Shown: piece after piece, positions 1 to 50,140 of the stretch
How the letters are laid out: each line of letters begins with the position of its first letter
How positions within the stretch are numbered: the first letter of the stretch is position 1
Source of the DNA: Candidatus Gastranaerophilales bacterium
GTDB lineage: Bacteria > Cyanobacteriota > Vampirovibrionia > Gastranaerophilales > Gastranaerophilaceae
NCBI GenBank assembly: GCA_944325825.1
Contig: CALVBP010000001.1
Span: 62,001 to 126,000, forward strand
Length of the DNA stretch: 64,000 nucleotides
Direction of reading: 5' to 3'
Notes under the pieces: generated by a model
What the model saw: the letters and a program-made list of their open reading frames with translations, nothing else
What the model was told of the DNA's origin: nothing
Databases searched by the model: none
Translations under genes and position numbers: made by a program

Positions 1-2
1 TA

Positions 3-3000
3 TTATCTGCTATAGCGACTGCAGAGGCTAAAGAAGCTACTTATGAAATTAATGTTGATAAACTTGCAACTTCAACACAGGCTGCAAGCGGATATAAGTT
101 CACTACTCAGATTGTAACAACTACCGCTGCAACATTAGATTCAAAACTTGCAAATTTAGGGGTGAAATCCGGTAACATAGGTGTAACGGTTAACGGGCTT
201 GAGCAAAATTTATACATTGCTGATAATGATACTATACAGACCTTTATTGATAAATTAAATAATTTAGGTGTAAGTGCTTCATTCAATCAGGATACCGGTG
301 TGTTCAATATGAATATCGGTATAAATGATATTAATGATAAGGATAATACAGGGATTATTGCCGCACTGCATCTGGAAGGTGTCAATGAAGGTTATCAAAG
401 TGACAAGCTTGAAATTACAAAGACGGATACAACTTTTGAATCTGCTGATGAATCTACTCTTTTAACCGATTTAGGTGTAAAAAGAGGTACTTTAACGATA
501 GAAGCAAACGATGCCATATATAATGTTGAAATAGATAATGATACTACTTTAGGTGAATTTTTACAGGCTCTGAGGGATGAAAATATTAATGCATCATTGA
601 CAGAGGGCGGTGTGTTCAGGCTTGAAGATGCGGTTATTACAAATGATGGAACAACAAACCTGATTGATGCTTTTGGCTTGCAGCAGAGTGTAAGTTCAAA
701 TATTCAGCAAAGCGGTGATTTGAGCTACAAGACCGTCGTAACGGATGTAACCGTCGCAACATTGGATTCGCTGCTTAATGATATCACGGAAAATGGTGTA
801 TCCAACGGCGATACTGTAGTTGTAAAGAATTCAAATAATGAAACTTCAACTATACGTTTGTCATCAACAAGTACACTGGGTGATTTATTTGACGGATTGA
901 AAGCTGCCGGAATGATGGCGGCCTTGAATAATGACGGCACTATTACTATATCCGGCGGTGAGATAACCGGCGGAAGTTTTGATGCTGTAAGGGAATTCGG
1001 TTTGGTAACGACTCCGACATCTTCTACAGTAACAGGTAATGTGCTTCAAAAAACTGTTACGACTACTCAGCTTGCAACGGAAGATACCCGCCTTGTGAAA
1101 GACTTGGGTGTAAAAGCAGGTGCACTGGAAGTTACAACCGGAGACGGAACTGTTCATAGCATAACAATTGATTCCGGAATGACAATCGGTGATTTGATTG
1201 ATACATATGAATCATTAGGTATAAGTGCAAGTATAGATACTTCCGGTGTCCTTACGGTTGCAGGCGGAAGCTTTAGTGAAGTGAGCGGCGGAACGGATTT
1301 GTTAACCAAATTATATGGCACGGATATGGTTGATAATACAAATCAGAATTCCGCATACTCAAAAACGGATGCCTTAAAGTACGATATAATGGTTACAGAG
1401 ACGGTTGAAGCCACTCTCGATTCTCTGATAAATGATGTGACCCAGAACGGTGTCTCAGACGGAGATACTCTTATAGTAAGGAATTCAAATAATCAAACAT
1501 ATACAATTAACTTAAATTCAAGCAGTACTCTGGCAGATATGTTCAGCGGATTGCAAAATGCCGGATTAAGAGGAACTTTGAACGAAAACGGTTCTATAAC
1601 AATATCCGGCGGAGAGATAATCGGCGGAAGCTTTGATGCGGTGGGTGAATTTAATTTATCATCCGTAACCAATTCCGGAATGGTTTCCGGCAGTGTCTTA
1701 AAAGAGACAATAACGACTGTTAACACAGCGACTATAGACACCCGCCTTGTTGAGGATTTGGGTGTAAAAGCCGGTGCATTAAAAGTAGAAACGGGCGATG
1801 GAACTATTCATAATGTAACGATTACATCCGGAATGACAATCGGTGATTTAATAGACGAGTACCGAGATATAGGTATTTCGGCAAGCATAGATTCATCTGG
1901 AGTTTTGACCGTAAACGGCGGTATCTTTAGTACAGTGAGCGGCGGAACGGATTTATTAACCAAATTATACGGTACGGATATGGTTGATAATACAAATCAG
2001 AACTCCGCATACTCTAAAACCGATGCATTAAAATATGATGTAATGGTAACAAGAACGGTTGAAGCCACTCTTGCTTCACTGATAAATGATGTGACAAAGA
2101 ATGGTGTTTCAAACGGAGATACCCTTGTAGTAAGGAATTCAAATAATCAAACACATACAATTAACTTAAATGCAAACAGCACTCTGGCAGATATGTTTAC
2201 CGGATTACAAAATGCCGGACTTAGAGCAACATTGAACGAAAACGGTTCCATAACGATATCCGGCGGAGAGATAATCGGCGGAAGCTTTGATGCGGTAGGT
2301 GAATTTAATTTATCATCAGTAACCAATTCCGGAATGGTTTCCGGCAGTGTCTTAAAAGAAACAATAACAACCGTTAATACTGCGACATCAGGCACCCGCC
2401 TTGTTGAGGATTTAGGTGTAAAAGCCGGTGCATTAAAAGTAGAAACAAGCGACGGAACTACTCATAATGTAATGATTACGTCCGGAATGACAATCGGTGA
2501 TTTGATAGACGAGTATCGAGATATAGGTATTTCGGCAAGCATAGATTCATCCGGAGTTTTGACCGTTAACGGCGGTATCTTTAGTACAGTAAGCGGCGGT
2601 ACGGATTTGCTGACCAAATTATACGGTACGGATATGGTTGATAATACAAATCAGAACTCCGCATACTCTAAAACTGATGCATTAAAATACGATGTATTGG
2701 TTACAAAAACAGTTTCAGCCACCCTTGATTCTTTGATAAATGATGTAGCTGCAATTAAAGTTTCAAACGGTGCAACTCTTGAAGTAAGGAATGCAAATAA
2801 TCAAACATATACAATTAACTTAAATTCGAGCAGCACTCTGGCAGATATGTTTACCGGATTGCAAAATGCCGGACTTAGAGCAACATTGAACGAAAACGGT
2901 TCCATAACGATATCCGGCGGTGAGATAACCGGCGGAAGCTTTGATGCGGTGAGAGCATTCAACCTTTCTTCCGTAACAAATTCCGGAATAGTTACCGGAA

Positions 3001-6000
3001 ATTCGCTTCAAGAGACTATTACCAATATCAATATAGCCACGGAAGACACCCGCCTTGTTGAGGATTTGGGTGTAAAAGCCGGTGCTTTAAAAGTAACAAC
3101 GGATGACGGAACTACTCATAATGTAACGATTACGTCCGGAATGACAATTGGCGATTTGATAGATGCATACGACGCCTTAGGTATAAGTGCAAGTATAAAT
3201 TCTTCCGGTGTTCTTACGGTTGCAGGCGGAAGCTTTAGTGCAGTAAGCGGCGGTACTGATTTGTTGACCAAATTATACGGCACGGATATGGTTGATAATA
3301 CAACCCAAAATTCTGCATATTCTAAATCCGAAGCGTTAAAATATGAAATTACCGAAACGGTGAAAGCCACACTGGATACAAAACTCGGTTCAATGGGGCT
3401 TGAAAGTGACTCAGCTGTATCATTTTCTGTTAAGGACGTCGGGACTGTATCTGTAACCTTAAGTTCATCAATGACAATTCAGGATATGATTGATAAACTG
3501 AGCTCTAAAGGTGTTTCGGCTTCCTTTGATAGTGAAAGTGCAAAATTAACTATTTCTAATGCTGAACTCACATCTGCTAAATCCCCGGTTAGTGAAATAT
3601 TTGGATTCACCTCTATAATTACAGGCAGATACACATCGTCAAAAGCTGTTTATGGAGTGCAGCAAGAAGAAGTATATGCTAATGAAAACACAACTCTCGG
3701 ACAGTTAGGCTTATCCGGAAACAGTACACTCAAACATCAAGTTAAGCTTTCTGTTGACGGTGTAGTGTATAATACATATGTTACATCAGCAACCAAAATG
3801 AGTCAGGTAATTGAATGGATTAACTCTAATGGTGCGACAGCAACGTTAACAAACGGTATATTTAGGATTGAAGGCGGGGCAATTATTGAAGGTCCTCTGG
3901 AAGTTCTGCTGGGACTTTCTACGCAGACAACAATAGTTCAATCTACAACGGAGCAAACTGCAGGATTATCGACAACTCTAGCGGCTGTCGCAAATACAAA
4001 TGATTTTAAAATAACATTCAAAGATTCTGCAACAGGTGCAGCTTCAACAGTATATACTTTTGCTTCAGATGCAACATTTGCAGATTTAATAAGTGTCTTT
4101 GTAAGTAATGACATTGATGTAACATTGACAGACGGTGTACTTTCGTTTGATACTTCTGCCGGTACTTATGCGACAGGTGCTCTTCTGGATGATTTCGGTG
4201 TGAAATCAAGTGCGGGCATCGTAGGTCTTGCACAGTCATCTATCAATCTGCGAGAAGAAAAGACGTTAACTACCAACGCTAGTTCATATACCACATTTGA
4301 AGATTTAGGTATTGATCCTACGAATATGACAATTTGTATCGAAGGCAATCGTCAGCAATGTACGATTAATACTCTGACAGAGAATTCTACGCTGGCGGAT
4401 TTCTTTAATAGGCTTTCAAGCTGGGGTGTTGGTTTAACCGGTTCTATTAGTAATGGTGTAATTACAATAAAATCTACTCAAAGCAATAAGCTAACCGGTA
4501 CTTTAGCAGAGGCATTAGGCATCAACTGGGGCAGTACTACAAAATGGAATTCAACCTCTAATGTAACGTATAAAAAGGTTGTGTATACTTCTACCGGCGG
4601 GAATGGCAATCTTGAAATAATTAAACCCGGAAATAATAATACCGGTAGTACATCATCAGGATTAGGTTCTTCGGTATCAACCGGCGGCGGTACCGGCGGC
4701 GGTACATTCCAGGCGACAACTGTTACTTGTACTGCGACACTAGATACTACTCTTAGTGAATTAGGTATAACATCTGATCAGGTGATTACTTATTCCATGG
4801 CTCCATCAGGGGGTGTAACATATCAACCTGCCCGTATTACTATTAAATCAACGGATACTTTAAGAACTCTTAAATCCAAAATAGCATCGTATGCGAGCAT
4901 GACTATATCATCAACCGGAAGGGTTTCTATAGTAGAAAATAGCAGCGATGGTAACCTCACTCTCACATCTAGTATAATATCGGCACTAAAATTGGCAGAA
5001 ACCGAAACTTATGATACCACAGCATCTGTAACCCTGAGCCCGATAAGTACTACGTCTACTTTTGGCGCAAGCCTAACAACCCAGCTTAAAAATATCCAGG
5101 TTTCTTCATGGGTGCTCCCCCTCACCTATTCTATTACGATTGGTAATGTAGAAACCGGCAGCCTTACTACATACACATTTGCATCAACTGATACTATTGA
5201 TGATTTTGTGACCACTCTTAAAGAGGCAGGTGTAAATGCCACCTTCTCTGCTTCAACCGCTACAGTTGAAATTGCTGCCGGCGGAGATGGGTATATAACG
5301 TCAATGTCAAATCAAATAAGCTCTATTTTCGGATTTAAAACCGGAGAGGGACATTCGTACGAATATTCAGATGGTGGAATGTCAGCCTCCGGTATGTTGA
5401 AAGAGTCTTCTAATAACTCGACTACAGTACCTACTTCTCAATCATCTGTAAGACCTCTGATGGTAACAATAGAGGTGCAATCTACGGTTACAACAGATAC
5501 AAAACTCTCTGATTTGGAAGATTTTAACGGAACAAATCTCGGTATAACTTCCGGTCAGGTCTATGTATATACTAACGGTGTGCGCAATACATTGAATATT
5601 AGCAGTAATGAGACGATAGGTTCCCTTTCCAGTAAGTTAGCAGCTTATGGTATTTCAATAGATATGTCTAATAACCAGCTCTATTTTAACGGTAACAGCA
5701 ATAGCTATCTGACAGTAACCGGACTGCCTGCTACCAGTGCTTCCAATATATTGACGAAATTGGGTATTCAAACCTGGAATACTAATTATGATACGGTTTC
5801 CGGTTCTCTTGTCGCCGAAGCCAACAGCAACGGAACGGCAAACGGAGATGTAAAACTTGTTGATTTGCGCGGTTCTAACGGTAATCTCCTCGGTATTACT
5901 ACGGGTACATATTACATATATGATAACGGAACCAAAATTACGGCAACTATAACCTCTGATATGACCGTAACCGATTTCTTAAACACTCTGAATGCCCATG

Positions 6001-9000
6001 GTATATCAGCAGGTATAAGTTCAGACGGTTCAATCACATTGAGCGGAAAGAACAATTCACACATAGCCTCATCGGGAGGTTCGAATATAGTAGATACATT
6101 ATTCCCTGATTGGGAGTATGTAAACACATATACATCCGAAGACTTGAAGTTCCAGACAGAAGAAGAAAAAGCCATAACCTCAAGTACAAAACTGTCAGAC
6201 ATAAACGGAGTAAGTTATAAAGCGGGCTTGATAACAGTAAATCGAGACGGAATCAAGACGAATATAACATTAACGACAGATGAGACAATCGGCTCATTAA
6301 TAGATAAATTAAATTTACAGGGCTTTAATGCGGCACTTGATGTAAACGGCAGTCTGACCATAAGATCAGACGGGAATCTGTTACTGGAAGAATACGTAGG
6401 AACCCAGACCGCATCAAATGTGATGGAAATATTGGGAATAGATCCGTCAAATTGGATAAAAACAAGTATATATGATAGTGCAAGCTTAGACAGAGAAGAA
6501 GTCACCCAAGAAGAGACAGCAATAGTCGGGGAAACAAAGCTGTCAGAAATCGGTGTAACAGCGGGCACATATTATATATATGAAAACGGAGTCCGCCTGA
6601 CAGCGACTATAACATCGGATATGACAGTGTCAGATTTCTTAAATACAATGAATTCACACGGCATATCAGCAGGTATAAGTTCAGACGGTTCAATCACGTT
6701 GAGCGGTAAGAACAATTCATACATAGCCTCATCCGGAGGTTCGAATATAGTAGATACATTGTTCCCTGATTGGCAGTATGTAAATACATATACATCCGAA
6801 GACTTGAAGTTCCAGACAGAAGAAGTCATGGCGGTTACCACAGATACAAAACTTGCGGATATTAATGGTGTGAACTATGTAGATGGGTTAATTACCATTA
6901 ATAAAAATGGTGCTAAAACAAATATAACTCTTACCTCTGACGAAACTATAGGGTCATTCATTAACAAGCTCAATGTTCAAGGCTTTAACGCAGCTCTTGA
7001 TATCAATGGCAGCTTGATTATAGGTGCTGACGGAAACCTCTCTCTTGAATCTTATGCCGGTACAGGCAAAGCTTCCAATGCTTTAAGTATTCTCGGTTTG
7101 GATTCTGCTAACTGGATTAAAACAAATACCTATGATAGTAAAGATTTGAATAAAGAAGAAGTCTATACGATAGATACTGCCGTTACTCGTGATACTATGC
7201 TTTCTGATTTAGGTATCAAAGCAGGTGAATACTATATCTATAGCAACGGTGTAAAATATACCGCAATGATTTCAGGTGATGATACAATAGGTTCATTTAT
7301 TCAGACTCTCCAAACCTTCGGTATTCAAGCAAGTCTAAGCATATCTGATGATAAGTCAACTTTGACTATTTTAGGCAACGGAGATTCTTATGTCGCCAAA
7401 TCTAATTCAGTAACAAATGCTTCTAATATTGTGGACAGACTCTTCCCGAACGGTATGGGTACCACCTACGATTACAACGCTTCGCTTACACAAACGATTA
7501 CGACAACTTCTACTCACCTTATCAATAAAGATACCCTCCTCAGTGAGCTTGATAAGGATTGGGGCAGCTCTAAACTTAAATCAGAAGGAAGATTAGTATT
7601 TAATATCAATGGTATAGCGAAAGCTATTGATATTGAATCCGATGAAACAATAGGCTCCCTTATCGATAAGCTGGAAACAATAGGAATAACCGCTTCAGTA
7701 TCTGACGGCGTATTTACAATTCAAAGCGGATTTGATGAAATAAGCATAAATCAACCTGCTTCTTCTTCAAATCTTATAACTAACCTTGAATTGACTTTCC
7801 ATGATGATTTAGGAGGTTATGCGGCAAGCTCTGATACGGTTATGCAGACGGTTACTACTTATGAAGAAAGAACCCTTTCCGTTTCAAATTATGCGGATAA
7901 CTCTACTAAATTGAATATGATGAATATTTCATCAGGTACTTTTACAATCTATAAAGATGGTCAAAAAGCAGTTATTCAGGTTGATTCCGAAGAAACCTTC
8001 GGAGAATTCCGTTCAAGAGTCGCATCCGCTCTTAATGGCGTAGATGTGAAATTTGAAAACGGTATTCTGACCTTCTTAGCAACAGACGGCGGTGATTTGC
8101 AAATAGGCTCTACTACCGATTCAAGCAATCTTGCCGCAGTTGCCGGACTTGCTAAGAATGAAGACGGTACAATTACAAGTGCAAGAGAATTGTATAAAGT
8201 GAACGGCTCTTCTGTTATCACAGATTCAGGCTTGTTTAGGCTCGGTAATGTTACTGAAGGTACATTTACCCTCGGTAATGAAGTCTTTACTATTGATGAT
8301 AAGACAACAATAAATGACTTGATAGGTCAGATAAATTCCAGCGAAGAATCTAATGCTACGGCTTATTGGGATTCTATTGACGGTAAACTTGTTATAACTT
8401 CCCGTGCAACAGGTGCATCACTTATTAATATCGAAGCCGGTACAAGTAACTTTACTGATATTATGGGCTTTACATCAACTGAAACAGCGGCTGACGGCTC
8501 AACAATAAAGAGACTCTCCGTGGATAATCAAACTCTCGGGGCAAACGCAAGCTTTACAATTAACGGTACAAGATATACTTCAACATCTAATACCGTTACA
8601 AGTGACATTTCAAGAATTGAAGGGGTTACTATTAATCTCAAAGATATAACAGAAGAAGGTCCTGTTACTCTGAAAATTGAACGTGACAAAGAAGCGGTTG
8701 CAGATGCGATTGAAGATGTTGTCGAAGCTTATAATGAGCTCATGTCAAATGTTAACGATGCAATTTCAATCGAAGGTGAGCTGCACGGTGAAACAATGCT
8801 TAAGCTGATAAGAACACAGCTGAGAAATCTCATGACAAGTTCACTGGCAGGCAGCGGTACTTATAAAAACCTTGATGCTATAGGTATAACATCAGAAGCT
8901 GCAAGCGGAACAAATGTTGATACTGAAAATGTAGATACGTTATATTTTGACAGGGAAAAATTCCTTGAAGCATATGGCGAACATCCTGAAGAATTGAAAG

Positions 9001-9284
9001 AATTTCTTGTAGGTACTGATGATAATCCGGGCGTGCTTTCCAAGGTAGAAACCTTGATTGAATCAACCCTGGCTTCAGTTACGGGTTACTTCGATTCCAC
9101 AGATTCTTCTTATGCTGACCAAATCCAGCGTATTGATGACAGAATTTCAAGACAAACACGTGCTGTTGAAAGATATAGAATACGTTTAGAAGCTAAATTC
9201 CAGTCTATGGATTTACTGATTGCTAATATGCAAAATCAGTACAGTTCATTCCTTACACTGGGCAGCAATGCTTTGACTGGTTAG
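3..9284 (+). CDS. fliD: Giant flagellar filament cap protein FliD (hook-associated protein 2), 5' end outside window
   Basis: The frame is open from the first bases, so the N-terminus lies upstream; 3,093 codons are visible. The last ~250 residues (about 8540-9281) match the FliD C-terminal domain: a SFTINGTRY segment, a VTINLKD segment, then long helices ending in a coiled coil that starts near RIDDRISRQTRAVERY. Everything before it is a string of about 25 modules of ~105-110 aa. Each module has a short TxLxxLGV start, a strand ending in a TIGDLIDxL-like helix and a GISASI..GVLTVxGG hairpin, which is the pattern of the Hook_IN motif of FliD/FlgK-type proteins. A Gly/Ser/Thr-rich linker sits near 4600-4710. 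Ordinary FliD is about 450-700 aa, so the insert is exceptional. The protein should pentamerise at the filament tip and aid flagellin folding; the array probably forms a long surface-exposed stalk (inference). Flagellin is at 49151. Confidence 0.85.
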   Translation, partial: LSAIATAEAKEATYEINVDKLATSTQAASGYKFTTQIVTTTAATLDSKLANLGVKSGNIGVTVNGLEQNLYIADNDTIQTFIDKLNNLGVSASFNQDTGVFNMNIGINDINDKDNTGIIAALHLEGVNEGYQSDKLEITKTDTTFESADESTLLTDLGVKRGTLTIEANDAIYNVEIDNDTTLGEFLQALRDENINASLTEGGVFRLEDAVITNDGTTNLIDAFGLQQSVSSNIQQSGDLSYKTVVTDVTVATLDSLLNDITENGVSNGDTVVVKNSNNETSTIRLSSTSTLGDLFDGLKAAGMMAALNNDGTITISGGEITGGSFDAVREFGLVTTPTSSTVTGNVLQKTVTTTQLATEDTRLVKDLGVKAGALEVTTGDGTVHSITIDSGMTIGDLIDTYESLGISASIDTSGVLTVAGGSFSEVSGGTDLLTKLYGTDMVDNTNQNSAYSKTDALKYDIMVTETVEATLDSLINDVTQNGVSDGDTLIVRNSNNQTYTINLNSSSTLADMFSGLQNAGLRGTLNENGSITISGGEIIGGSFDAVGEFNLSSVTNSGMVSGSVLKETITTVNTATIDTRLVEDLGVKAGALKVETGDGTIHNVTITSGMTIGDLIDEYRDIGISASIDSSGVLTVNGGIFSTVSGGTDLLTKLYGTDMVDNTNQNSAYSKTDALKYDVMVTRTVEATLASLINDVTKNGVSNGDTLVVRNSNNQTHTINLNANSTLADMFTGLQNAGLRATLNENGSITISGGEIIGGSFDAVGEFNLSSVTNSGMVSGSVLKETITTVNTATSGTRLVEDLGVKAGALKVETSDGTTHNVMITSGMTIGDLIDEYRDIGISASIDSSGVLTVNGGIFSTVSGGTDLLTKLYGTDMVDNTNQNSAYSKTDALKYDVLVTKTVSATLDSLINDVAAIKVSNGATLEVRNANNQTYTINLNSSSTLADMFTGLQNAGLRATLNENGSITISGGEITGGSFDAVRAFNLSSVTNSGIVTGNSLQETITNINIATEDTRLVEDLGVKAGALKVTTDDGTTHNVTITSGMTIGDLIDAYDALGISASINSSGVLTVAGGSFSAVSGGTDLLTKLYGTDMVDNTTQNSAYSKSEALKYEITETVKATLDTKLGSMGLESDSAVSFSVKDVGTVSVTLSSSMTIQDMIDKLSSKGVSASFDSESAKLTISNAELTSAKSPVSEIFGFTSIITGRYTSSKAVYGVQQEEVYANENTTLGQLGLSGNSTLKHQVKLSVDGVVYNTYVTSATKMSQVIEWINSNGATATLTNGIFRIEGGAIIEGPLEVLLGLSTQTTIVQSTTEQTAGLSTTLAAVANTNDFKITFKDSATGAASTVYTFASDATFADLISVFVSNDIDVTLTDGVLSFDTSAGTYATGALLDDFGVKSSAGIVGLAQSSINLREEKTLTTNASSYTTFEDLGIDPTNMTICIEGNRQQCTINTLTENSTLADFFNRLSSWGVGLTGSISNGVITIKSTQSNKLTGTLAEALGINWGSTTKWNSTSNVTYKKVVYTSTGGNGNLEIIKPGNNNTGSTSSGLGSSVSTGGGTGGGTFQATTVTCTATLDTTLSELGITSDQVITYSMAPSGGVTYQPARITIKSTDTLRTLKSKIASYASMTISSTGRVSIVENSSDGNLTLTSSIISALKLAETETYDTTASVTLSPISTTSTFGASLTTQLKNIQVSSWVLPLTYSITIGNVETGSLTTYTFASTDTIDDFVTTLKEAGVNATFSASTATVEIAAGGDGYITSMSNQISSIFGFKTGEGHSYEYSDGGMSASGMLKESSNNSTTVPTSQSSVRPLMVTIEVQSTVTTDTKLSDLEDFNGTNLGITSGQVYVYTNGVRNTLNISSNETIGSLSSKLAAYGISIDMSNNQLYFNGNSNSYLTVTGLPATSASNILTKLGIQTWNTNYDTVSGSLVAEANSNGTANGDVKLVDLRGSNGNLLGITTGTYYIYDNGTKITATITSDMTVTDFLNTLNAHGISAGISSDGSITLSGKNNSHIASSGGSNIVDTLFPDWEYVNTYTSEDLKFQTEEEKAITSSTKLSDINGVSYKAGLITVNRDGIKTNITLTTDETIGSLIDKLNLQGFNAALDVNGSLTIRSDGNLLLEEYVGTQTASNVMEILGIDPSNWIKTSIYDSASLDREEVTQEETAIVGETKLSEIGVTAGTYYIYENGVRLTATITSDMTVSDFLNTMNSHGISAGISSDGSITLSGKNNSYIASSGGSNIVDTLFPDWQYVNTYTSEDLKFQTEEVMAVTTDTKLADINGVNYVDGLITINKNGAKTNITLTSDETIGSFINKLNVQGFNAALDINGSLIIGADGNLSLESYAGTGKASNALSILGLDSANWIKTNTYDSKDLNKEEVYTIDTAVTRDTMLSDLGIKAGEYYIYSNGVKYTAMISGDDTIGSFIQTLQTFGIQASLSISDDKSTLTILGNGDSYVAKSNSVTNASNIVDRLFPNGMGTTYDYNASLTQTITTTSTHLINKDTLLSELDKDWGSSKLKSEGRLVFNINGIAKAIDIESDETIGSLIDKLETIGITASVSDGVFTIQSGFDEISINQPASSSNLITNLELTFHDDLGGYAASSDTVMQTVTTYEERTLSVSNYADNSTKLNMMNISSGTFTIYKDGQKAVIQVDSEETFGEFRSRVASALNGVDVKFENGILTFLATDGGDLQIGSTTDSSNLAAVAGLAKNEDGTITSARELYKVNGSSVITDSGLFRLGNVTEGTFTLGNEVFTIDDKTTINDLIGQINSSEESNATAYWDSIDGKLVITSRATGASLINIEAGTSNFTDIMGFTSTETAADGSTIKRLSVDNQTLGANASFTINGTRYTSTSNTVTSDISRIEGVTINLKDITEEGPVTLKIERDKEAVADAIEDVVEAYNELMSNVNDAISIEGELHGETMLKLIRTQLRNLMTSSLAGSGTYKNLDAIGITSEAASGTNVDTENVDTLYFDREKFLEAYGEHPEELKEFLVGTDDNPGVLSKVETLIESTLASVTGYFDSTDSSYADQIQRIDDRISRQTRAVERYRIRLEAKFQSMDLLIANMQNQYSSFLTLGSNALTG
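756..3365 (+). repeat. Four tandem 654-bp (218-aa) units inside fliD
   Basis: The landmark ACCCGCCTTGT recurs at 1086, 1740, 2394 and 3048, spaced exactly 654 bp apart. The landmark coding ATLDSL(I/L)ND recurs at 756, 1410, 2064 and 2718. Each unit encodes two Hook_IN-like modules, one starting with (A)TLDSLINDV and one with DTRLVEDLGVKAGAL. Units 2 and 3 are the most alike at the base level. The next unit after 3365 is shorter by two codons at its start and has clearly diverged. Confidence 0.9.
5892..7211 (+). repeat. Second tandem repeat in fliD, two 660-bp (220-aa) units
   Basis: Segments coding for GI/GVT(T/A)GTYYIY start at 5892 and 6552, and a more diverged GIKAGEYYIY copy starts at 7212, giving a 660-bp period. 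The stretches 6001-6170 and 6661-6830 are almost identical base for base, including TATACATCCGAAGACTTGAA, which suggests recent duplication or gene conversion. Each unit again encodes two Hook_IN-like modules. Confidence 0.85.
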
Positions 9285-9386: not shown

Positions 9387-10082
9387 ATGAGAATAGACGG
9401 AAGAGAAAATAATCAGCTTAGAACAATTAAATTTACCCATAATTTTACAAAACATGCCCTAGGCTCAGTTTTGGTTGAATTTGGAGATACAAAAGTTATC
9501 GTGACAGCCTCTGTTGATTTGAAAAAGCCAAAATGGATGGCTGAAGATGATGAAAGAGGCTGGGTTACGGCAGAATATTCTCTGTTGCCTTCTTCAACAA
9601 ATACAAGATGCAGAAGAGAAAGAGAAAAAGTTTCGGGCAGAACCCATGAAATTCAAAGACTTATCGGAAGAAGCTTACGTGCTTGTGTCGATTTAACAAA
9701 AATGCCCAAAATGACTATTACAATTGATGCCGATGTGATTCAAGCTGACGGAGGTACAAGAACTGCAAGTATTTGCGGAGGGTATCTTGCATTAAAAGAT
9801 GCAGTGGATAAACTCTTGGCTTCCGGAGATTTAACTGAAAATCCTATAATTGAACCTGTAGGTGCTGTTTCAATCGGTATAGTCGATGATGAAATTAAGC
9901 TTGATTTGAATTATGAAGAAGATTCTCATGCAAGGGTGGATTCCAATGTGGTGTTGACAAAAAGCGGGAAAATCGTTGATTTTCAGACAACCTCCGAGGG
10001 TGCACCATATGAATACAATACAATGCTTGAGTTATTTTGTATCGCAAAATCCGGCATTGATAAAATTATTGAAATGTATTAG
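9387..10082 (+). CDS. rph: Ribonuclease PH
   Basis: This 231-aa protein trims the 3' ends of tRNA precursors by phosphorolysis in the cytoplasm. Family landmarks are an N-terminal MRIDGRENNQLR, GSVLVEFGDTKVIVTASV, the basic segment RCRREREKVSGR(T)HEIQRLIGRSLRA, and the catalytic-region ADVIQADGGTRTASI. Length is usual for the family, although it stops soon after the ELFCIAKSGI helix. The start is supported by a strong AAAGGAG upstream of ATG. It follows fliD after about 100 bp and is likely a separate transcription unit, since two TATGAT boxes lie at 9358-9368. Confidence 0.95.
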   Translation: MRIDGRENNQLRTIKFTHNFTKHALGSVLVEFGDTKVIVTASVDLKKPKWMAEDDERGWVTAEYSLLPSSTNTRCRREREKVSGRTHEIQRLIGRSLRACVDLTKMPKMTITIDADVIQADGGTRTASICGGYLALKDAVDKLLASGDLTENPIIEPVGAVSIGIVDDEIKLDLNYEEDSHARVDSNVVLTKSGKIVDFQTTSEGAPYEYNTMLELFCIAKSGIDKIIEMY

Positions 10083-10147
10083 TTCCTTGTTGACTGGCTC
10101 TTATGTTGCCTGTAAACTGGTATAGAGAAATGTGTGGGGAAAAGTTT

Positions 10148-11527
10148 ATGGAAGAGAATGCACTAAAAAAATTTACTACAGCAAAATTTATAAGTTTTGC
10201 TATAGGTTTCTTCGGACTCCAGTTTGCCTGGCAGATGAGAATAATATTGTCCGGCCCTGTTACAGAAGAGTTAGGTGCATCACCTTTCCTGTTCGGCTTA
10301 ATTTGGCTTGCCGGCCCTTTTACCGGTATGGTTGTACAGCCGGTTATCGGGGCACTGAGTGATAAAACAAGAACCGCTTTTGGCAGAAGACGACCGTATC
10401 TTTTAGGCGGGGCGCTTCTTTCTGCTCTTGCACTCTGGGCTCTTCCAAATTCTGCATCTATAACTAATTGGTTCTCTAATCTTTTACATTTTCACTTCCC
10501 TGCCTGGTCAGCACTGTTGTTTGCAGCGATTATGATATGGATTTTAGATGCTTGTGTTAATATTGCCCAAGGCCCATACAGAGCTCTTGTTCCAGATGTT
10601 GTGCCTCCGGAACAACATTCTATTGCTAATTCATATATAAGTCTTGCAATAGGCCTCGGTTCAGTTTTTGCTGCAGGTGCAGCTCCGTTCCTAAAGTGGG
10701 CGTTCAATTATCAGATGCCTATAAATGCTCAGTTTATAATGGCGGCGCTTGCTTTCTCTCTGGGTATGATTTGGACTTGTACGGCTATACAGGAACGAAA
10801 TAATATAAGTACTGAAACAAAAAATGATGAAAAATTTAATATTGTAAAATCTTTGAAAGATTTTTTCGGACTTTCTCCGGAAGTCGGAAAAATTTGCTGG
10901 ATGCAGTTTTTTACCTGGATTGGTACGATGTGTATGATGATGTACTTTACTCAATACTCTGTCCATACCGTTTTTGCAGTTCCGGATTTATCTGATGTTC
11001 ATGAAACGATGAAAACGGCTTATGACAGTGCAGTCCTTGCCGGAACAAACTTTTCTTCAGTTTGTTTTGCAATTTTTAATTTGATATGTTTTATTGTGGC
11101 AATTCCTATCGGTGTTCTGTCTGTTAAATACGGAAATAAGAAAGTACATATTATATCAATGCTCTCTATGGCAGCGGCTTATCTCGGTATGGCAATAACG
11201 GTTAATCCCAAGTTGATTGCTTTGTTTATGGCTATTTCAGGTATTGGATGGGCGAGTATTTGCGCACTTCCGTTTGCGATGCTTTCTCAGTTTATTAAAC
11301 CCGGAACTGAAGGTTCTGTTATGGGAATCTTTAATATTTTTATAGCAGGTCCGCAAGTCTTTGTCTGTACTCTTGTTTCCTGGTTGATTAACAAAAGTAT
11401 GTTTATTATGGATGAAGGAGTTAATTATCACTGGGAATATACTTTTATTGTGGGAGCTTTGTGTCTGATTGCGGCTTCAATCGTTGCATCAAAAGTGAAA
11501 GAAAAGTCTGTCCCTCAAAATGTATAA
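10148..11527 (+). CDS. MFS transporter of the sugar (GPH/SLC45-like) type
   Basis: A membrane protein of about 459 aa with around 12 hydrophobic segments. The loop GALSDKTRTAFGRRRPYLL after the second membrane segment is the MFS signature as found in sucrose/maltose-type proton symporters (SLC45 and GPH-like carriers). The substrate cannot be read from sequence; a sugar is likely. I place the start at ATG 10148 because GGGGA lies 7 nt upstream; an ATG at 10103 is in frame but has no ribosome binding site. It follows rph by 65 bp and may be co-transcribed. Confidence 0.8.
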   Translation: MEENALKKFTTAKFISFAIGFFGLQFAWQMRIILSGPVTEELGASPFLFGLIWLAGPFTGMVVQPVIGALSDKTRTAFGRRRPYLLGGALLSALALWALPNSASITNWFSNLLHFHFPAWSALLFAAIMIWILDACVNIAQGPYRALVPDVVPPEQHSIANSYISLAIGLGSVFAAGAAPFLKWAFNYQMPINAQFIMAALAFSLGMIWTCTAIQERNNISTETKNDEKFNIVKSLKDFFGLSPEVGKICWMQFFTWIGTMCMMMYFTQYSVHTVFAVPDLSDVHETMKTAYDSAVLAGTNFSSVCFAIFNLICFIVAIPIGVLSVKYGNKKVHIISMLSMAAAYLGMAITVNPKLIALFMAISGIGWASICALPFAMLSQFIKPGTEGSVMGIFNIFIAGPQVFVCTLVSWLINKSMFIMDEGVNYHWEYTFIVGALCLIAASIVASKVKEKSVPQNV

Positions 11528-11551
11528 CCGCTCAGCTTGTGAGGTATTATT

Positions 11552-12946
11552 ATGACAAAAAAAATACTTTTGATTTATCCCCCTTCACCGGTTTTAAACA
11601 GAGAAGACAGATGCCAGCAGCCTACGAAAGAACTTCTGGTAATTCCGCCGCTGCCTCCTACGGATCTGATGTATCTTGCTGCTATCGCCGAAAAACTGGG
11701 CTTTGAGGCTGTAATTCGTGATTATAGTCTGGGCGGGGATTTGTTTCAAGACCTGATTGAACTTAAACCGGATTATTTGCTTGCTAATATTGCAACTCCT
11801 ACGTTTAAATCGGATATGGAGACAGTTAAAAATATCAAAGAAAAGATTCCTAATTGTATAACAATTGTAAAAGGTGCGCCGTTTCTTACATATAATACGA
11901 ATGTTATTTATGAACACCCTTATATTGATTACGTAATTATGGGTGAGCCGGAACTCACATTAAAGGAAATTCTAGAAGGGGTGCCTGATAATGAAATCCT
12001 CGGTATTTGTTATAAAGAAAATTTTCAGGGTGTAAAAAATGAATCAAGACCCTTTAATGAAGATTTGGACTCCTTGCCCTTTCCAGCCAGACATTTGGTC
12101 GATAATACAATTTACAGGAGACCGGATAACGGAAAGGTTCAGGCAGTAATAAAAGTTTCCAGAGGATGTCCGTTTCACTGCTTTTTCTGTTTAGCATCAC
12201 CAGTTTCCGGAATTAAGGTTAGAAAGCGTTCTGCTGAAAATATTATAGCGGAGTTAAAAGAATGTGTTGAAAAATTTAATATTACCAACTTTCTTTTCTG
12301 GTCAGATATTTTCAATATTGATAGAAGTTGGACCATAGATTTATGTAAAAAAATTATTGACAGCGGTCTTAAAATTACTTGGTCGGCAAATACACGGGCT
12401 GATACAATGGATGATGAAATGGCTCATTGGATGTATAAATCAGGATGCAGACTCGTAAGCATAGGCGTTGAAAGCGGTTCACAAGAAATTTTGAACAATA
12501 TAGGTAAGAAAATAACTCTGGATAATATAAGAAATACGGTTAAAGTATTGAAGAAAAATAAAATTAAAATTTATAATTATTTTGTGCTCGGACTTCCCTG
12601 GGAAACAGAGGAAACTGCAAACGAAACCATAAATTTTGCAATAGAACTCGATAGTAATTTTGTAAGTTTTTATACGGCAGCACCTCTTCCGGGAACAAAA
12701 TTCTTTGCTTATGCTCTGGTAAATAAGCTTGCAGAAGATGGGTTGAATTTTGACGGTGCATATTTTGTACCTTCTGTCCGTACACATAGCCTTTCAAAAG
12801 AACGTATTCTTGAGATTCATAAATCAGCAGTACGGAAATTCTATCTCCGCCCGGGTTTTATTTTTAAAACTATTTTGTCCCTCCGTTCTTTTACGGAGTT
12901 TAAGAATTATTTTCGGGCAGGTATGAATTTGATTTTTAAAAGATAA
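11552..12946 (+). CDS. B12-binding-domain radical SAM protein
   Basis: This 464-aa protein has an N-terminal Rossmann-like cobalamin-binding region (about residues 1-140, including VIMGEPELTL) and a radical SAM barrel. The CxxxCxxC iron-sulfur motif is CPFHCFFC near residue 206. Later come a GVESGSQEIL segment typical of this superfamily and YFVLGLPWET. Members act on lipids, tetrapyrroles or methyl-transfer targets; the substrate here is unknown. The start is preceded by GTGAGGT. A strong terminator lies just downstream. Confidence 0.85.
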   Translation: MTKKILLIYPPSPVLNREDRCQQPTKELLVIPPLPPTDLMYLAAIAEKLGFEAVIRDYSLGGDLFQDLIELKPDYLLANIATPTFKSDMETVKNIKEKIPNCITIVKGAPFLTYNTNVIYEHPYIDYVIMGEPELTLKEILEGVPDNEILGICYKENFQGVKNESRPFNEDLDSLPFPARHLVDNTIYRRPDNGKVQAVIKVSRGCPFHCFFCLASPVSGIKVRKRSAENIIAELKECVEKFNITNFLFWSDIFNIDRSWTIDLCKKIIDSGLKITWSANTRADTMDDEMAHWMYKSGCRLVSIGVESGSQEILNNIGKKITLDNIRNTVKVLKKNKIKIYNYFVLGLPWETEETANETINFAIELDSNFVSFYTAAPLPGTKFFAYALVNKLAEDGLNFDGAYFVPSVRTHSLSKERILEIHKSAVRKFYLRPGFIFKTILSLRSFTEFKNYFRAGMNLIFKR

Positions 12947-12974
12947 AAGGTTGATAAACAGTATTTTAAAACAG

Positions 12975-13010
12975 AAGGGGGTCGGATTCTAACAAGAATC
13001 CGACCCCCTT
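12975..13010. terminator. Bidirectional rho-independent terminator
   Basis: A perfect 16-bp stem (AAGGGGGTCGGATTCT and its complement at 12995-13010) closes a 4-nt loop AACA. It sits between the convergent radical SAM gene and rpsT. The flanks are only moderately T-rich (TTCGTTAATT on one side, TTTTAAAACAG on the other). Confidence 0.8.
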
Positions 13011-13030
13011 CGTTAATTAATCCTCGGAGC

Positions 13031-13297
13031 TTATTGCTGAGCTCTTTTAATAGCAAGAACAAGTCTTGATTTCTTTCTTGCAGCAGTATTTTTATGCAAA
13101 ATACCTTTTGATACAGCCTTATCGCACAACTGATAAACTTTTGAAATAGCTAAGTCTAAAGCTTCTTTATCAGATTCAGTTGCCAGTGAAAGAGCTTTTT
13201 TAACTGCTGATTTAATAGATGTTTTAAAAGCTACATTTCTTTGTCTGTTGGCTTCTGCAATAAGAACTCTTTTCTTTGCTGACTTAATATTTGCCAT
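13031..13297 (-). CDS. rpsT: 30S ribosomal protein S20
   Basis: An 88-aa basic protein that binds 16S rRNA in the small subunit. It starts MANIKSAKKRV and contains the KSAVKKAL and DKAVSKGILHKNTAARKKSRL segments of S20. An in-frame upstream ATG at 13381 would add 28 unrelated residues; the start at 13297 has GAAAGGAAATATAAA before it and fits the family. It is monocistronic and ends at the shared terminator. Confidence 0.97.
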   Translation of the reverse strand: MANIKSAKKRVLIAEANRQRNVAFKTSIKSAVKKALSLATESDKEALDLAISKVYQLCDKAVSKGILHKNTAARKKSRLVLAIKRAQQ

Positions 13298-13441
13298 TTT
13301 ATATTTCCTTTCACTTGTAACAATTAAAAAGGTTAATGACTCCGTTTTTAATTGTTTATCACATGAGGATTGTGAGTACAATTATTGTATTAGTAACAAA
13401 CTATTTTGTAAAGAGGATTATTGCGTTTTAATACAAGGTAC

Positions 13442-15952
13442 TTAACTTTTCTTAATTTCTGTTAAGGTAGGATCCAGGAGCCGTCTTCCGATGTTATCAA
13501 AATTTATGGAATAAAGAGTTTTTGTTCCATATTTAATCATTTTTTCGACAACACCTGTTCCGTATTTTGCATGAGTAACGGTATCTCCTTGCTCAATAGG
13601 GTCGCTTGTCACCATATCTTCCGGAGGAATATCTGCATCATAAACAGGTACAATAGGTGTAGAAGAATTTCTGGTTTCAAGTATTTCTCCACTGTCATCG
13701 GTCTCAGCAGAATTGCCGACTTCTTCCAACGGTTCTAAAAAAACGTCGTCTTCGTCCTCTGCTATAGGTTCTAATTCTTCAATTTCTTCTCTTGTTTGGG
13801 GAAGTTCTTCAATTTTTTCTTCAGAATTTTCGCCATTTAATTCATCTATAAAATCTAAATCTGAATCAGAGATATCCTCATCTTCTTTTATTGTAGTGAA
13901 AACTTTATCGACATCTTCGACTATTTGTTTATCTAAATCTTCTTCTGAGAGTCCTTCGTCTTCGCTGCCTAAATCAACAAGAATTGCTTCTCCGTCAGAT
14001 TCGGAATTGGGGTCTAGCTCAACCAATTCATCTAATTCGCTGTTATCTTCATTAATAGGAATTACCCCGATATCGTTTGTTTCTTCTTCAAATTCTTTTA
14101 ATGACGGAATCTCCTGACTTTTTTCAGGTTCTTCTTCTACTAAATCGGAAATTTCTTCGGGGAGGGAAATTTCTTCAGATTGTTCTTGTTCATCTAAAGA
14201 AATTTCAGGAAGTATTTCCGGCACATCCTCGTTATTTTCTGCTTCAGAACCCGGTATTACTTCTTCAGAGATATTATCAGGTGTAGTATTATCTTCTGTT
14301 AGCGTGCTTTGTTGAAAATCTTCTGTCTGTGTTTCTTCTTTAATTTTGTCTTCAGGATTTTCATTTATGCCGGATTCAACAGGAATCTCTCCGGTTTCTT
14401 CACTAAAAGATTCAGGTTCAACTACAGTATCATTATTAGTACCATTTTGAACGGTTATATTTTCATTCGTACTTACTGTATTATCTTCAGTGATAAGAGT
14501 CTCTGTATCTTCATCCGTATCTTCATCGGCAAAAAGATTTTGAACAGTAGAAACTTCTGAGCTTTGAACTTCTTCTGATAATTTTTCAATTAAGTCATCA
14601 GACTTTTTCTCAATTGCGGCAGCAGTTGGTTCAAGGGGCTGTGCCGTAATATCATCACTCTGTGCGATTTCGTCTTCTTTTATTACTTCATCTGTAATTT
14701 CATTTTCTAAATCTTCAACTGTGAGTTCTTGTGCCGCAAGAGGAGTTTCATCCGGTTCTGCTCCGGGATGAGGTTCTATAACTGCTGTTATTTCTTCCAG
14801 GTCAGAGACTAGAGGAATATAGTTTGTTCCTTCTCCGACAAGCAGATAAGTATCTTTTGGCATAGAGTTAAGAAATGTGTTATAAATATTGAAAACCTGA
14901 TTCGCTGTAAAAGAAGGTTCTATTATAAAATTATCAAACAGGTTTTTAATTTCGTTAATGTATTTAAATTTCGAATGAGTTATAAATGTAGTTGACAATG
15001 CATCATTGGTCAACACATTTTTAATATTTTTCTTGTTAATTGAATTTGAACTTTCCAGAAATATTTGCACAGAATCTTTTTGTTTTGAAAGTGCTGAAAG
15101 GATACAGCTCAGGTATCTGTTTTGGAAAGTCGGGTCAAGTTTTGACAAATCAATAATTGCAAATTTTGATTGAAGGATTTTATCAAGATTTTCAGCTTCG
15201 TCTTTTGTTTTTGCAAAGCATCCGTCTTTATCAAATTTTGCGAGTTTATTTTTTAATACGAGCAGTTTGAATATATGAGACTTGTCAACCAAATCATCCA
15301 CTACTGTTTTAAGTGCGCTGAAAGGCAGAAAAGGAACGGTCTTAGCATATTCACCCAAATCCAGAAATATTTCTTTTATCATAGCCTTACTTTCAGGGGT
15401 TGTGTCATTAAGGCAATCTTCATACATAAAAGAAAGACCCTCTATATTTAACGGCAGGCTAAAATCAGTGCCGGCAGTAAATTTTTTGCCATCTACAATT
15501 CCCAGCATATCTATAACAATAACTCTGCCATATGTTTTAAATTGGTTAACAAAGTTTGATAAAATAATATTATTTGAATCGGGTTTATCTACACATATAA
15601 GGGTTTTTTTATTAAAGCAATCTTTGTCAACAGGTATATTGATATGTTTGTCGGTGAATTTACCGGCAAATATAGGATTTGTCGGGGTTAGAGAGTTGTT
15701 TAGAATATCGAGTGTAAACTCGCTGATTTCAGAATCTTTATCAGGGAGAGTTTTATCGTAATTTCTGAGTATTCCGTCATACAGAAATAAAATTTTTGCA
15801 TATGCAATCAGATTACCTCCGGCCTTTTTTACCTGAATTACCTGAGCAATATACTGTTTAGCAATATCATTTATTAATATAAATGACGATAACGAAATCT
15901 TTTCTTCAGATTCAAACTTGATAAAACCGTCTCTTACTTCTAAAATTCTCAT
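13442..15952 (-). CDS. Large protein: HerA-like barrel plus degenerate ATPase, acidic linker, Tudor-like tail
   Basis: I do not recognise this 836-aa protein as a named family. Residues 1-~60 (GFIKFESEEKISL, YIAQVIQVKKAGGNLIAY) look like the N-terminal barrel of HerA/FtsK-type ATPases. The following region has the expected strand TLICVDKPDSNNIIL where a P-loop should be, but no GKS/GKT, and later FAIIDLSKLD in a Walker-B-like position. Residues ~395-770 are extremely acidic and low in complexity, and probably disordered. The last ~50 residues (GDTVTHAKYGTGVVEKM, LYSINFDNIGRRLL) resemble the Tudor/SH3-like C-terminal domain of PcrA/UvrD helicases that contacts RNA polymerase. A role at the transcription or DNA machinery is inference only. 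Confidence 0.7.
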   Translation of the reverse strand: MRILEVRDGFIKFESEEKISLSSFILINDIAKQYIAQVIQVKKAGGNLIAYAKILFLYDGILRNYDKTLPDKDSEISEFTLDILNNSLTPTNPIFAGKFTDKHINIPVDKDCFNKKTLICVDKPDSNNIILSNFVNQFKTYGRVIVIDMLGIVDGKKFTAGTDFSLPLNIEGLSFMYEDCLNDTTPESKAMIKEIFLDLGEYAKTVPFLPFSALKTVVDDLVDKSHIFKLLVLKNKLAKFDKDGCFAKTKDEAENLDKILQSKFAIIDLSKLDPTFQNRYLSCILSALSKQKDSVQIFLESSNSINKKNIKNVLTNDALSTTFITHSKFKYINEIKNLFDNFIIEPSFTANQVFNIYNTFLNSMPKDTYLLVGEGTNYIPLVSDLEEITAVIEPHPGAEPDETPLAAQELTVEDLENEITDEVIKEDEIAQSDDITAQPLEPTAAAIEKKSDDLIEKLSEEVQSSEVSTVQNLFADEDTDEDTETLITEDNTVSTNENITVQNGTNNDTVVEPESFSEETGEIPVESGINENPEDKIKEETQTEDFQQSTLTEDNTTPDNISEEVIPGSEAENNEDVPEILPEISLDEQEQSEEISLPEEISDLVEEEPEKSQEIPSLKEFEEETNDIGVIPINEDNSELDELVELDPNSESDGEAILVDLGSEDEGLSEEDLDKQIVEDVDKVFTTIKEDEDISDSDLDFIDELNGENSEEKIEELPQTREEIEELEPIAEDEDDVFLEPLEEVGNSAETDDSGEILETRNSSTPIVPVYDADIPPEDMVTSDPIEQGDTVTHAKYGTGVVEKMIKYGTKTLYSINFDNIGRRLLDPTLTEIKKS

Positions 15953-16068
15953 TCTAAAACCTCTAAACAGATATTATCATGAACATGCTCTTATTTTAAA
16001 AAATTTTTTACAATTCTATAACAAATTTTTAATTGAAGTCTAATAAAATTTGTGGTTTAATTCTTGCT

Positions 16069-17277
16069 ATGAGAGAAATTTTATTGAATAACAACATTAA
16101 TGCCTGTATAAAAATTAACAATGATACTCCGAGAACAGCATTGGCTTTGAATTTCTTAATAGAAAGACCGGAGAAAATCCCTGGTGAATATCTTTTAATG
16201 AACAGACTTCTTTTAAAAGGTACAAATAAATACAAGTCGGAAGAACTAGCTTCTATACTGGATGAAAATGCCATAGATATGTTAACCGAAATGAAATATG
16301 ATTATTTAAGATTCCGCTTTGTATCATTAAATGAAGATTTTGAATACGCACTTTCTATACTTTCAGATGTTATTTTGAATTCAACATTTGAGGAGTTTGA
16401 GAAAGAAAGAGAAACTTTAAAAGGAGAACTTTTAGCAGAATTGGATTCAGCCAGAACAAAAGTTTCGGATTTATTTACAAAAACTATTTACAAAAATCAT
16501 TTTTACGGAGCGAGTTATACAACAATTCTTGAAAATATAGATAGGGTTACCCTTGAAAGTGTAAAGGAATCTTATAATTATATTCTGACAAATAGTAAAA
16601 AAACACTTGCATTTGCAGGTGATATAGATTCTGATAGGGTTGTTGAACTTCTAAATAAATATTTGGACCGGATACCTGATTCAAAAAATATTGTTTCAGA
16701 AATATGTCCTCCTAATCCTGTAAAACAAGAAAAAGCGGAACTGGTTAAAGAAGATGCCCAACAGGCGCAAATTATTCAAGGGTGGCTTGTTCCTACCATA
16801 GGCAGTGACGATTATTTTAAAATAATGCTTTTAAATACAATTCTTGGTGCAAGCGGTCTTTCTTCCCGTTTATTTATGGAATTAAGAGAGAAAAAAGGTC
16901 TGGCATATACGGTCAGAACTTCATATGAAACTCATCAGAAAGCTGCCGTGTTTAGTATATATATAGGAACTGAACCTTCCAATATAGAAACATCAATTTC
17001 CGGGTTTAAAGAAGAGATTGAAAAAATAAAGAGAATTCCGGTTTCTGAAGAAGAGTTACATAATGCTAAAAATAATATTATTGGCAAGCAGCAGTTTATA
17101 ACTGAAACAAATTCTCAGCAGGCAAATTTAATGGCATATTATTCAATTTCAGGTAAGCCATTCGATTATCAAAAAGAGGTTGTTGAGAGGTTAAAATCCG
17201 TAACTTCTGCTGAATTACTGGAGTGCGCCAATAAATATTTCACGGATAATTTTGTAATTGCTGTATTAAGACCTTAG
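16069..17277 (+). CDS. M16-family peptidase-like protein lacking the zinc motif
   Basis: A 402-aa protein with two M16 halves. The N-terminal REILLNNNINACIKINN and LLMNRLLLKGT strands match M16, but where active enzymes have HxxEH (as in FLEHMLFKGT) this one has EYLLMN, so it should not bind zinc. The C-terminal half keeps the LREKKGLAYTVRTSY segment typical of the non-catalytic partner subunit. Such proteins usually pair with an active M16 subunit, which is not in this window. I choose ATG 16069 over an in-frame TTG at 16033 because family members begin MREI.L.N. No clear ribosome binding site is seen. Confidence 0.75.
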   Translation: MREILLNNNINACIKINNDTPRTALALNFLIERPEKIPGEYLLMNRLLLKGTNKYKSEELASILDENAIDMLTEMKYDYLRFRFVSLNEDFEYALSILSDVILNSTFEEFEKERETLKGELLAELDSARTKVSDLFTKTIYKNHFYGASYTTILENIDRVTLESVKESYNYILTNSKKTLAFAGDIDSDRVVELLNKYLDRIPDSKNIVSEICPPNPVKQEKAELVKEDAQQAQIIQGWLVPTIGSDDYFKIMLLNTILGASGLSSRLFMELREKKGLAYTVRTSYETHQKAAVFSIYIGTEPSNIETSISGFKEEIEKIKRIPVSEEELHNAKNNIIGKQQFITETNSQQANLMAYYSISGKPFDYQKEVVERLKSVTSAELLECANKYFTDNFVIAVLRP

Positions 17278-49150: not shown

Positions 49151-50140
49151 ATGGCTCTTACAATTAACACAAACATTTCGTCGCTTATTGCACAAAGAAA
49201 CTTAAACAGCGCGACAAACTCTTTAAACACTGCTATTGAAAGAATGACTACCGGTTACAAAATTAACCATGCGTCTGATGATGCAGCCGGTTATTCTATT
49301 GCAAATTTATGGGAAACTCAACTGGGCTCATTAGATGTCGCTGCCGATAATGCGGCTACTGGTTCAGACTTGTTGACTACAGCAGAAGAAACATATTCAT
49401 TATTGACCAGCCACTTACAACGTGTAAGAGACTTGACAGAACAAGCTGCTAACGGAACTTATGGTTCAGCTTCATTAAAAGCTATTCAATCAGAAATAAG
49501 TGCAAGGTTGCAGGAAGTTAACAGAATTTCTGCAAATGCTGAATTTAACGGTATTAAATTGATGGCATACAATATGGATGGACAAGGAAATGAATCTGTG
49601 GGTATTACAGCAGCCGGTATTAACCTTCAGGTTGGGCTTTATGCAGATGAGAACAGTATTATTAATCTTAATGTCGAATTATTCTCTAATGCAAGCTTAA
49701 GCGGCTTGTTTAAGGACATGACCGGTTTGGATGCTTTAATGACAAGTGCTGGCGGTGATGTATCAGCATTAGGCGATGCAGAGAATATTGAGGCTTTTGC
49801 TGCTGCTTGTGCGGGTTTGGTTTATGATGCCGGAGACTTTACTCTTCAAACAGACCCGGATTCCGGAGCAAAAGAAATGTTGGCTTATCTGGATGATGCA
49901 ATTGATGTAATTTCAGATAGAGTAACTAAAATTGGTGCGGTTCAGAACCGTGTAGAATCTTCTATAACAGCTCTTGATGTTCAGTCTCAAAACCTGACTT
50001 CATCACTTTCTACATTGAAAGATGCCGATGTTGCGGAAGAATCTTCAAACTATATTCAAGCTCAGATATTGCAGCAGGCTTCTGCTACTTTATTAGCAAC
50101 AGCTAACCAGCTGCCAAGTATTGCATTGAACTTGATATAA
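49151..50140 (+). CDS. fliC: Flagellin
   Basis: A 329-aa filament subunit. The N-terminal D0/D1 (MALTINTNISSLIAQRNLNS, then IERMTTGYKINHASDDAAGY) and C-terminal D1/D0 (IGAVQNRVESSITALDVQ, DADVAEESSNYIQAQILQQA, TANQLPSIALNLI) are complete. The short middle domain (~140-240) is variable. It is exported by the flagellar apparatus and capped by FliD. Single gene with its own terminator; no chaperone gene adjacent. A second, headless flagellin remnant lies at 26134. Confidence 0.96.
   Translation: MALTINTNISSLIAQRNLNSATNSLNTAIERMTTGYKINHASDDAAGYSIANLWETQLGSLDVAADNAATGSDLLTTAEETYSLLTSHLQRVRDLTEQAANGTYGSASLKAIQSEISARLQEVNRISANAEFNGIKLMAYNMDGQGNESVGITAAGINLQVGLYADENSIINLNVELFSNASLSGLFKDMTGLDALMTSAGGDVSALGDAENIEAFAAACAGLVYDAGDFTLQTDPDSGAKEMLAYLDDAIDVISDRVTKIGAVQNRVESSITALDVQSQNLTSSLSTLKDADVAEESSNYIQAQILQQASATLLATANQLPSIALNLI

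Follow-up and report, generated by a model that had tools for sequence, protein, structure and literature searches.

The flagellar filament cap protein FliD (HAP2) is commonly regarded as compact, with a length of about 450-700 aa. FliD of Campylobacter jejuni has an extra domain, D4, a single globular insert in the D1 helix bundle that has been proposed to serve adherence (PMC7316729), and FliD has been linked to mucin binding in P. aeruginosa and to methanogen contact in Pelotomaculum (reviewed in PMC4009794). The available part of Burroughs et al. 2007 reports a beta-grasp domain in FliD, FlgK and FlgL and does not describe a massive tandem multiplication of it (PMC1949818). Flagellar subunits of more than 1,000 aa, enlarged by internal domain duplication and insertion, have been described as giant flagellins, which build the filament (PMC6248924), while SiiE of Salmonella (595 kDa), a type I secretion substrate, is a long chain of small beta-rich, Ig-like modules that could hold a binding part off the cell (PMC6272769).

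The protein described here, a giant FliD of 3,181 aa, has the same two terminal domains as canonical FliD, in the same order, and the same kind of beta-grasp outer domain; however, it has 25 outer modules and not two, and the NCBIfam FliD models that it matches span 440-672 positions, which agrees with the remark in a first-pass annotation of this DNA that known FliD proteins are several-fold shorter. It is an additional paralogue and not the sole FliD, and its relatives, unlike canonical FliD, carry central inserts. Where the C. jejuni protein has one globular insertion, the giant has a long series of outer domains. It resembles the giant flagellins in its manner of enlargement but belongs to the cap family, whose giants reach about 2-6 times the 1,000-aa threshold used for flagellins, and it resembles SiiE in its chain of small modules but differs in its FliD ends, beta-grasp fold, presumed flagellar export and the anchoring of both chain ends. 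The repeats that characterize GLUG-repeat adhesins are absent from this giant (no PF07581 match in Pfam) and present in the apex inserts of its relatives.

The window, a stretch of 64,000 nucleotides, comes from a draft genome (57 contigs) of Candidatus Gastranaerophilales (Melainabacteria), a gut bacterium with cyanobacteria as relatives. The intact frame of 3,093 codons that the annotation had reported was confirmed and represents the 3′ 97% of the gene (Table 1). The whole gene (G000:C1:61739-71284, identical to L003:6740-16285) runs for 3,181 codons without interruption from an ATG start (MTISFSGLASGLDTSSW) at G000:C1:61739, 262 bases 5′ of window base 1, to the stop at window 9284; its product starts with MTISFSGLASGLDTSSWVESLV, and the N-terminal motif MTISFSGLxSGLDTSSW is common to the giant and its canonical paralogue. 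By eye, the flanking genes in L003 are of lipid-A/LPS type upstream, on the minus strand, and RNase PH-like downstream; the giant gene therefore lies outside any flagellar operon. A scan for sigma-28 sequences (TAAAGTTT/GCCGATAA) 5′ of the giants, the flagellins and FliD gave nothing over background, and no flagellar promoter was recognised there. Repeats are a usual cause of misassembly, and in a draft genome a chimaeric or falsely expanded gene has to be considered; however, the longest exact DNA repeat within the gene is 62 nt, short enough for the gene to be resolved by ordinary short reads. Other, independent assemblies contain intact orthologues (2375, 3437 and 3503 aa) with C-terminal ends 79-87% identical and differing module numbers. 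The artefact reading is refuted in substance, and we assign it a negligible probability. A pseudogene reading was also considered and rejected.

Both ends of the protein identify it as a paralogue of FliD, and here the annotation was borne out. FliD_N and FliD_C both score over their Pfam cut-offs (54.3 bits against 24.8 and 129.4 bits against 25.4, respectively). Retrieval of the upstream sequence yielded this FliD N-terminus, 53% identical to that of canonical FliD across 111 residues, and not a different one such as that of a non-flagellar adhesin. Against the NCBIfam FliD equivalog cut-off of 469 bits, which is a naming threshold rather than a biological feature and was not used to exclude the giant, the giant scores 80.8 and the canonical paralogue 131.7; because the canonical paralogue too falls below it, such cut-offs are unsuited to this lineage. 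Pfam searches of the whole protein found neither Flagellin_N nor Flagellin_C, and nothing in the 3,181 residues matched the Ig-like or RTX modules and type I secretion signal of giant adhesins such as SiiE.

Between these ends, a module profile seeded on the TIGDLI-type repeat motif and iterated on four giant proteins, which settled at 82 positions, delimits exactly 25 modules of ~82 aa (residues 131-2912), each at E=2.6e-10 or better in a genome-wide search; about 25 had been claimed. A "218-aa unit" proposed earlier (446-1179) proved to be a pair of modules, the single repeat being ~82 aa. Canonical FliDs were left out of the training of the profile, and two further entries of 612 aa in the same listing are locus-truncated pieces of longer frames. 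Even so trained, the profile finds exactly two modules in each canonical FliD (573-585 aa) of the genus, at ~124-210 (E ~1e-15 to 1e-20) and 226-317 (E ~1e-8 to 1e-12), and two in each member of g17, a more distant FliD group used as outgroup; in the genome of the window it matches 25 times in the giant, twice in the canonical FliD and in no other gene. We conclude that the arm arose by multiplication of the outer beta-grasp domain that FliD itself has, because a profile built from giants alone recovers two modules in the canonical proteins, and the relation to FliD's outer domains that had been suggested holds as homology.

The more specific assignment of the modules to the Hook_IN family held in part: this model (Flagellin_IN) matches 8 of the 25 modules when they are searched singly, a weak fit with a best E-value of 1.8e-4, but has no match at E<=1 on the whole protein. 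Searched against solved chains, the module profile found ubiquitin, flagellin and FliD, mostly with weak E-values. An AF2 model of four modules (18-21), computed from an alignment of a disjoint row set, gave strand-strand-helix-strand-strand in each (pLDDT 73.6); its pTM of 0.36 means that the relative placement of the modules is not given by the model. The best flagellar match of this model in Foldseek was H. pylori FliD (E=2.1e-4, probability 0.87, low overall TM-score), and the predicted fold fits the beta-grasp domain of FliD, FlgK and FlgL as reported in the available part of PMC1949818. Of the two structure predictions that had been proposed, the one for the C-terminus was too poor for use (pLDDT 45) because its alignment had four rows. 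Pfam also listed weak matches of the modules to ubiquitin-like families; no weight was given to RP-C, OTU1_UBXL, RA_2, CBS and other matches, since those of ubiquitin-like type fit a beta-grasp fold and the rest are repeat-driven. Ca2+-dependent ice adhesins (4p99, 5irb), which ranked high in Foldseek, were rejected, as TM-scores of ~0.1 reflect a common bead-chain shape and not the fold.

Table 1. Features of the giant FliD gene in window coordinates.
Feature	Position	Strand	Evidence or remark
End of FliD N-terminal domain (FliD_N, residues 10-112)	1..74	+	PF02465 E=2.2e-14; first 88 residues upstream of window
Giant FliD, codons 89-3181 and stop	3..9284	+	
Module 1	129..374	+	65.6 bits
Module 2	444..680	+	67.7 bits
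Module 3	756..1004	+	58.9 bits
Module 4	1074..1313	+	66.4 bits
Module 5	1410..1658	+	49.8 bits
Module 6	1728..1967	+	66.0 bits
Module 7	2064..2312	+	48.6 bits
Module 8	2382..2621	+	65.8 bits
Module 9	2718..2966	+	51.5 bits
Module 10	3036..3275	+	68.7 bits
Module 11	3366..3611	+	59.4 bits
Module 12	3678..3914	+	41.4 bits
Module 13	3963..4202	+	40.3 bits
Module 14	4278..4523	+	50.4 bits
Gly/Ser/Thr/Asn-rich midpoint linker, residues 1597-1665, presumed loop apex	4527..4733	+	68% G/S/T/N/P vs 42% in whole protein
Module 15	4734..4994	+	41.5 bits
Module 16	5067..5336	+	44.8 bits
Module 17	5487..5768	+	71.9 bits
Module 18	5838..6107	+	74.4 bits; in four-module AF2 model
Module 19	6174..6443	+	65.3 bits; in four-module AF2 model
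Module 20	6531..6767	+	82.5 bits; in four-module AF2 model
Module 21	6834..7100	+	65.7 bits; in four-module AF2 model
Module 22	7182..7445	+	76.7 bits
Module 23	7521..7796	+	58.8 bits
Module 24	7893..8150	+	56.6 bits
Module 25	8223..8474	+	35.4 bits
FliD C-terminal domain, residues 2934-3166	8538..9236	+	PF07195 E=1.9e-37, 129.4 bits

Relatives of the host genome were searched for giants within Cyanobacteriota. At least 37 of the 54 genomes of the genus encode one (a FliD-domain frame of >=900 aa, some cut by contig ends), and nearly all also encode a canonical FliD of ~580 aa. Giants are also present in genera g15 and g28, and thus in three genera, with frames up to 6,603 aa; in a class-wide sample, FliD frames outside family f1 reach 799 aa and no giant was found among them. 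In the length check of related genomes that had been recommended, 29 distinct giants could be read complete, at ~1,200-6,131 aa in open frames, several with a GTG start. In a tree of the ends (130 + 266 residues), the 29 giants and 31 canonical FliDs are split by one branch with 100% support (100/100 in a smaller, more careful tree), and when rooted on the g17 FliDs the giants form one group, again with 100% support. These trees indicate that the giants are a separate paralogous clade of one origin that has long co-existed with normal FliD. The giant is a clade-wide variant of FliD, with several times the length of those that NCBIfam models. The cap reading of the annotation stands as to the family; the giant is not, however, the cell's only cap protein, since a canonical 578-aa FliD is encoded elsewhere in the host genome and the giants are a clade apart.

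L067 and L078 contain a diverged giant type, with starts MTISFSGPASGIDTSAW and MSISFGGQASGVDTSAW, the end QTQYQVYF and a long branch, beside which another FliD start lies in that part of the locus. In L006, two divergent giant FliDs (645-6698, minus strand, and 10001-17128, plus strand) surround glycosyltransferase-like genes; the second of them lacks a FliD C-terminus and ends after 2,017 aa. Three genomes of g14 and g23, two further genera of this family, have frames of 3,022-6,511 aa that match FliD_C weakly (G108:C9, G133:C11 and G101:C43) and are perhaps more diverged giants.

Comparison with three orthologues gave dN/dS values of 0.04-0.07 for the N-terminus, 0.05-0.11 for FliD_C and 0.08-0.14 for the modules; the values are rough, as dS is near or above saturation, and they indicate purifying selection, strong in the D0/D1 ends. 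This bears on the idea that the array grew neutrally by recombination and has no role beyond capping, or even without it. Tandem modules and pairs are up to 91% identical in DNA and lengths vary greatly, as such growth would predict, but a dN/dS of ~0.1 within the modules, frames that stay open over 1,200-6,131 aa in 29 giants and retention of the paralogue across three genera make purely neutral growth very improbable.

The two termini of C. jejuni FliD adjoin each other in the leg domain (PMC7316729). If the same holds here, the module chain must go out and return, and the arm should be a loop with an insert at its apex, not a free rod. Of the 29 complete giants, 20 have inserts, taken as interior stretches of >150 aa without modules; their centres lie at 0.30-0.54 of the length, and they are preceded by 3-14 modules and followed by 5-17. 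Module counts on the N and C sides correlate (Spearman rho 0.69, p=0.0008, n=20, not corrected for ancestry). Inserts of seven giants contain GLUG or M26-N type repeats over the Pfam cut-off (L077, E=1.6e-55; L081, 3.4e-36; L049, 1.8e-20; L074, 6.9e-16; L054, 1.5e-13; L079, 1.5e-9; L056, 2.7e-8), other inserts had no Pfam match, and PDB sequence searches with the GLUG inserts gave no match. The giant of the window has no adhesive domain recognised by Pfam; its midpoint has a flexible linker only, of 69 residues at 0.51 of the length, bordered by lower-scoring modules. An apex that changes fast while the ends are conserved would be as expected of a binding part. In L049 (minus strand), residues ~792-860 of a 2,985-aa giant, a flagellar protein that is presumably extracellular, form an entire acyl-carrier-protein domain within the apex insert (PP-binding, E=7.5e-12; serine motif GADSLD). 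The five very long arms envisaged in the annotation should accordingly be loops in place of free rods; "five" presumes a homopentamer, and the giant could just as well share a mixed cap with canonical FliD.

The host genome evidently encodes a flagellar apparatus, with one complete FlhA (703 aa, 860 bits), eight Flagellin_N-type proteins and, recognised by eye, FlhB-, FlgK- and FlgL-like ORFs; flagella have been inferred from genes in Gastranaerophilales before (PMC4040986, PMC5877343). A 496-aa ORF (G000:C33:4147-5169, minus strand; L097:1465-2955) matches only the C-terminal half of FlhA (FHIPEP 321-653, E=1.5e-44) and is possibly a soluble relative of this export platform protein. The window itself has, at 49151-50140, a gene for an ordinary flagellin of 329 aa. 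Another flagellin, of 1,374 aa (L098:811-4950, minus strand; G000:C1:16310-20449), has Flagellin_N and Flagellin_C at its ends and, in its middle, GGxGxD-like repeats that by eye resemble calcium-binding RTX repeats, where Pfam gives only a weak DUF3060 match. A third, of ~690 aa (L099:2213-4324, plus strand; G000:C21), has by eye a GLUG-like insert between flagellin ends, without a Pfam match at E<=0.01. Because the repeat-rich and GLUG-like flagellins occur in this same genome, its filaments may be decorated too. The giant might then replace normal FliD on filaments of decorated flagellins, giving the cell one swimming and one adhesive flagellum. Eight Flagellin_N matches, two of them with large inserts, and two long-separated FliD clades retained side by side would suit such a division; however, flagellin gene number is no proof of separate filaments, only one complete FlhA was found and the giant gene is not adjacent to a flagellin gene in L003. 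We regard separate filaments as unlikely.

We think it reasonably likely, instead, that the giant is a FliD paralogue specialised as an extra flagellar-tip protein, which would most likely serve adhesion or cell contact there. In this mechanism the giant would be exported by the flagellum, D0/D1 would hold it at the filament end, and the loop of modules would contact surfaces or cells. A ubiquitin-size domain measures ~4 nm; 25 modules would therefore make a chain of ~100 nm. From a cap with a width of ~13 nm and a length of 17 nm it could extend outwards by up to ~50 nm, and the flagellar tip would probably become a long-armed gripping or contact device. Alternatively, D0/D1 could act in export and docking only, and the giant would work as a secreted fibre or adhesin that is either released or located on the length of the filament or at the hook junction. 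A subunit of 330 kDa might impede capping cycles, and with canonical FliD retained the giant need not cap. Conservation in the giant, however, extends beyond an N-terminal signal to the whole of FliD_N and FliD_C, and the C-terminal domain, needless for mere export, has a dN/dS of 0.05-0.11, so that we hold this alternative to be rather improbable. Returning to the tip protein, a fuller reading would make the flagellar tip of this gut lineage a grasping organelle, in which an ancient FliD paralogue, on the D0/D1 base of a normal cap, multiplies the cap domain to as many as ~31 copies in closed loops and presents exchangeable binding domains at their apex; we offer it tentatively, as a proposal slightly on the doubtful side of even.

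A search of the open literature, as distinct from subscription papers, found no description of a giant FliD. The lineage keeps its normal FliD and has evolved, a single time, another form of several times its length, in which the outer domain was copied and domains were added in mid-chain. If export and assembly of the giant proceed as its ends suggest, questions become testable: the greatest chain length that can pass the flagellar export channel, whether mixed caps can form, and whether a long-armed contact device can be carried at the tip of a rotating filament. Were the grasping-organelle reading true, few chains known to leave through a flagellum would be longer than the frames of up to ~6,600 aa. 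For the attachment of uncultured Melainabacteria in the gut, or their hold on partner cells, the giant is a concrete candidate.
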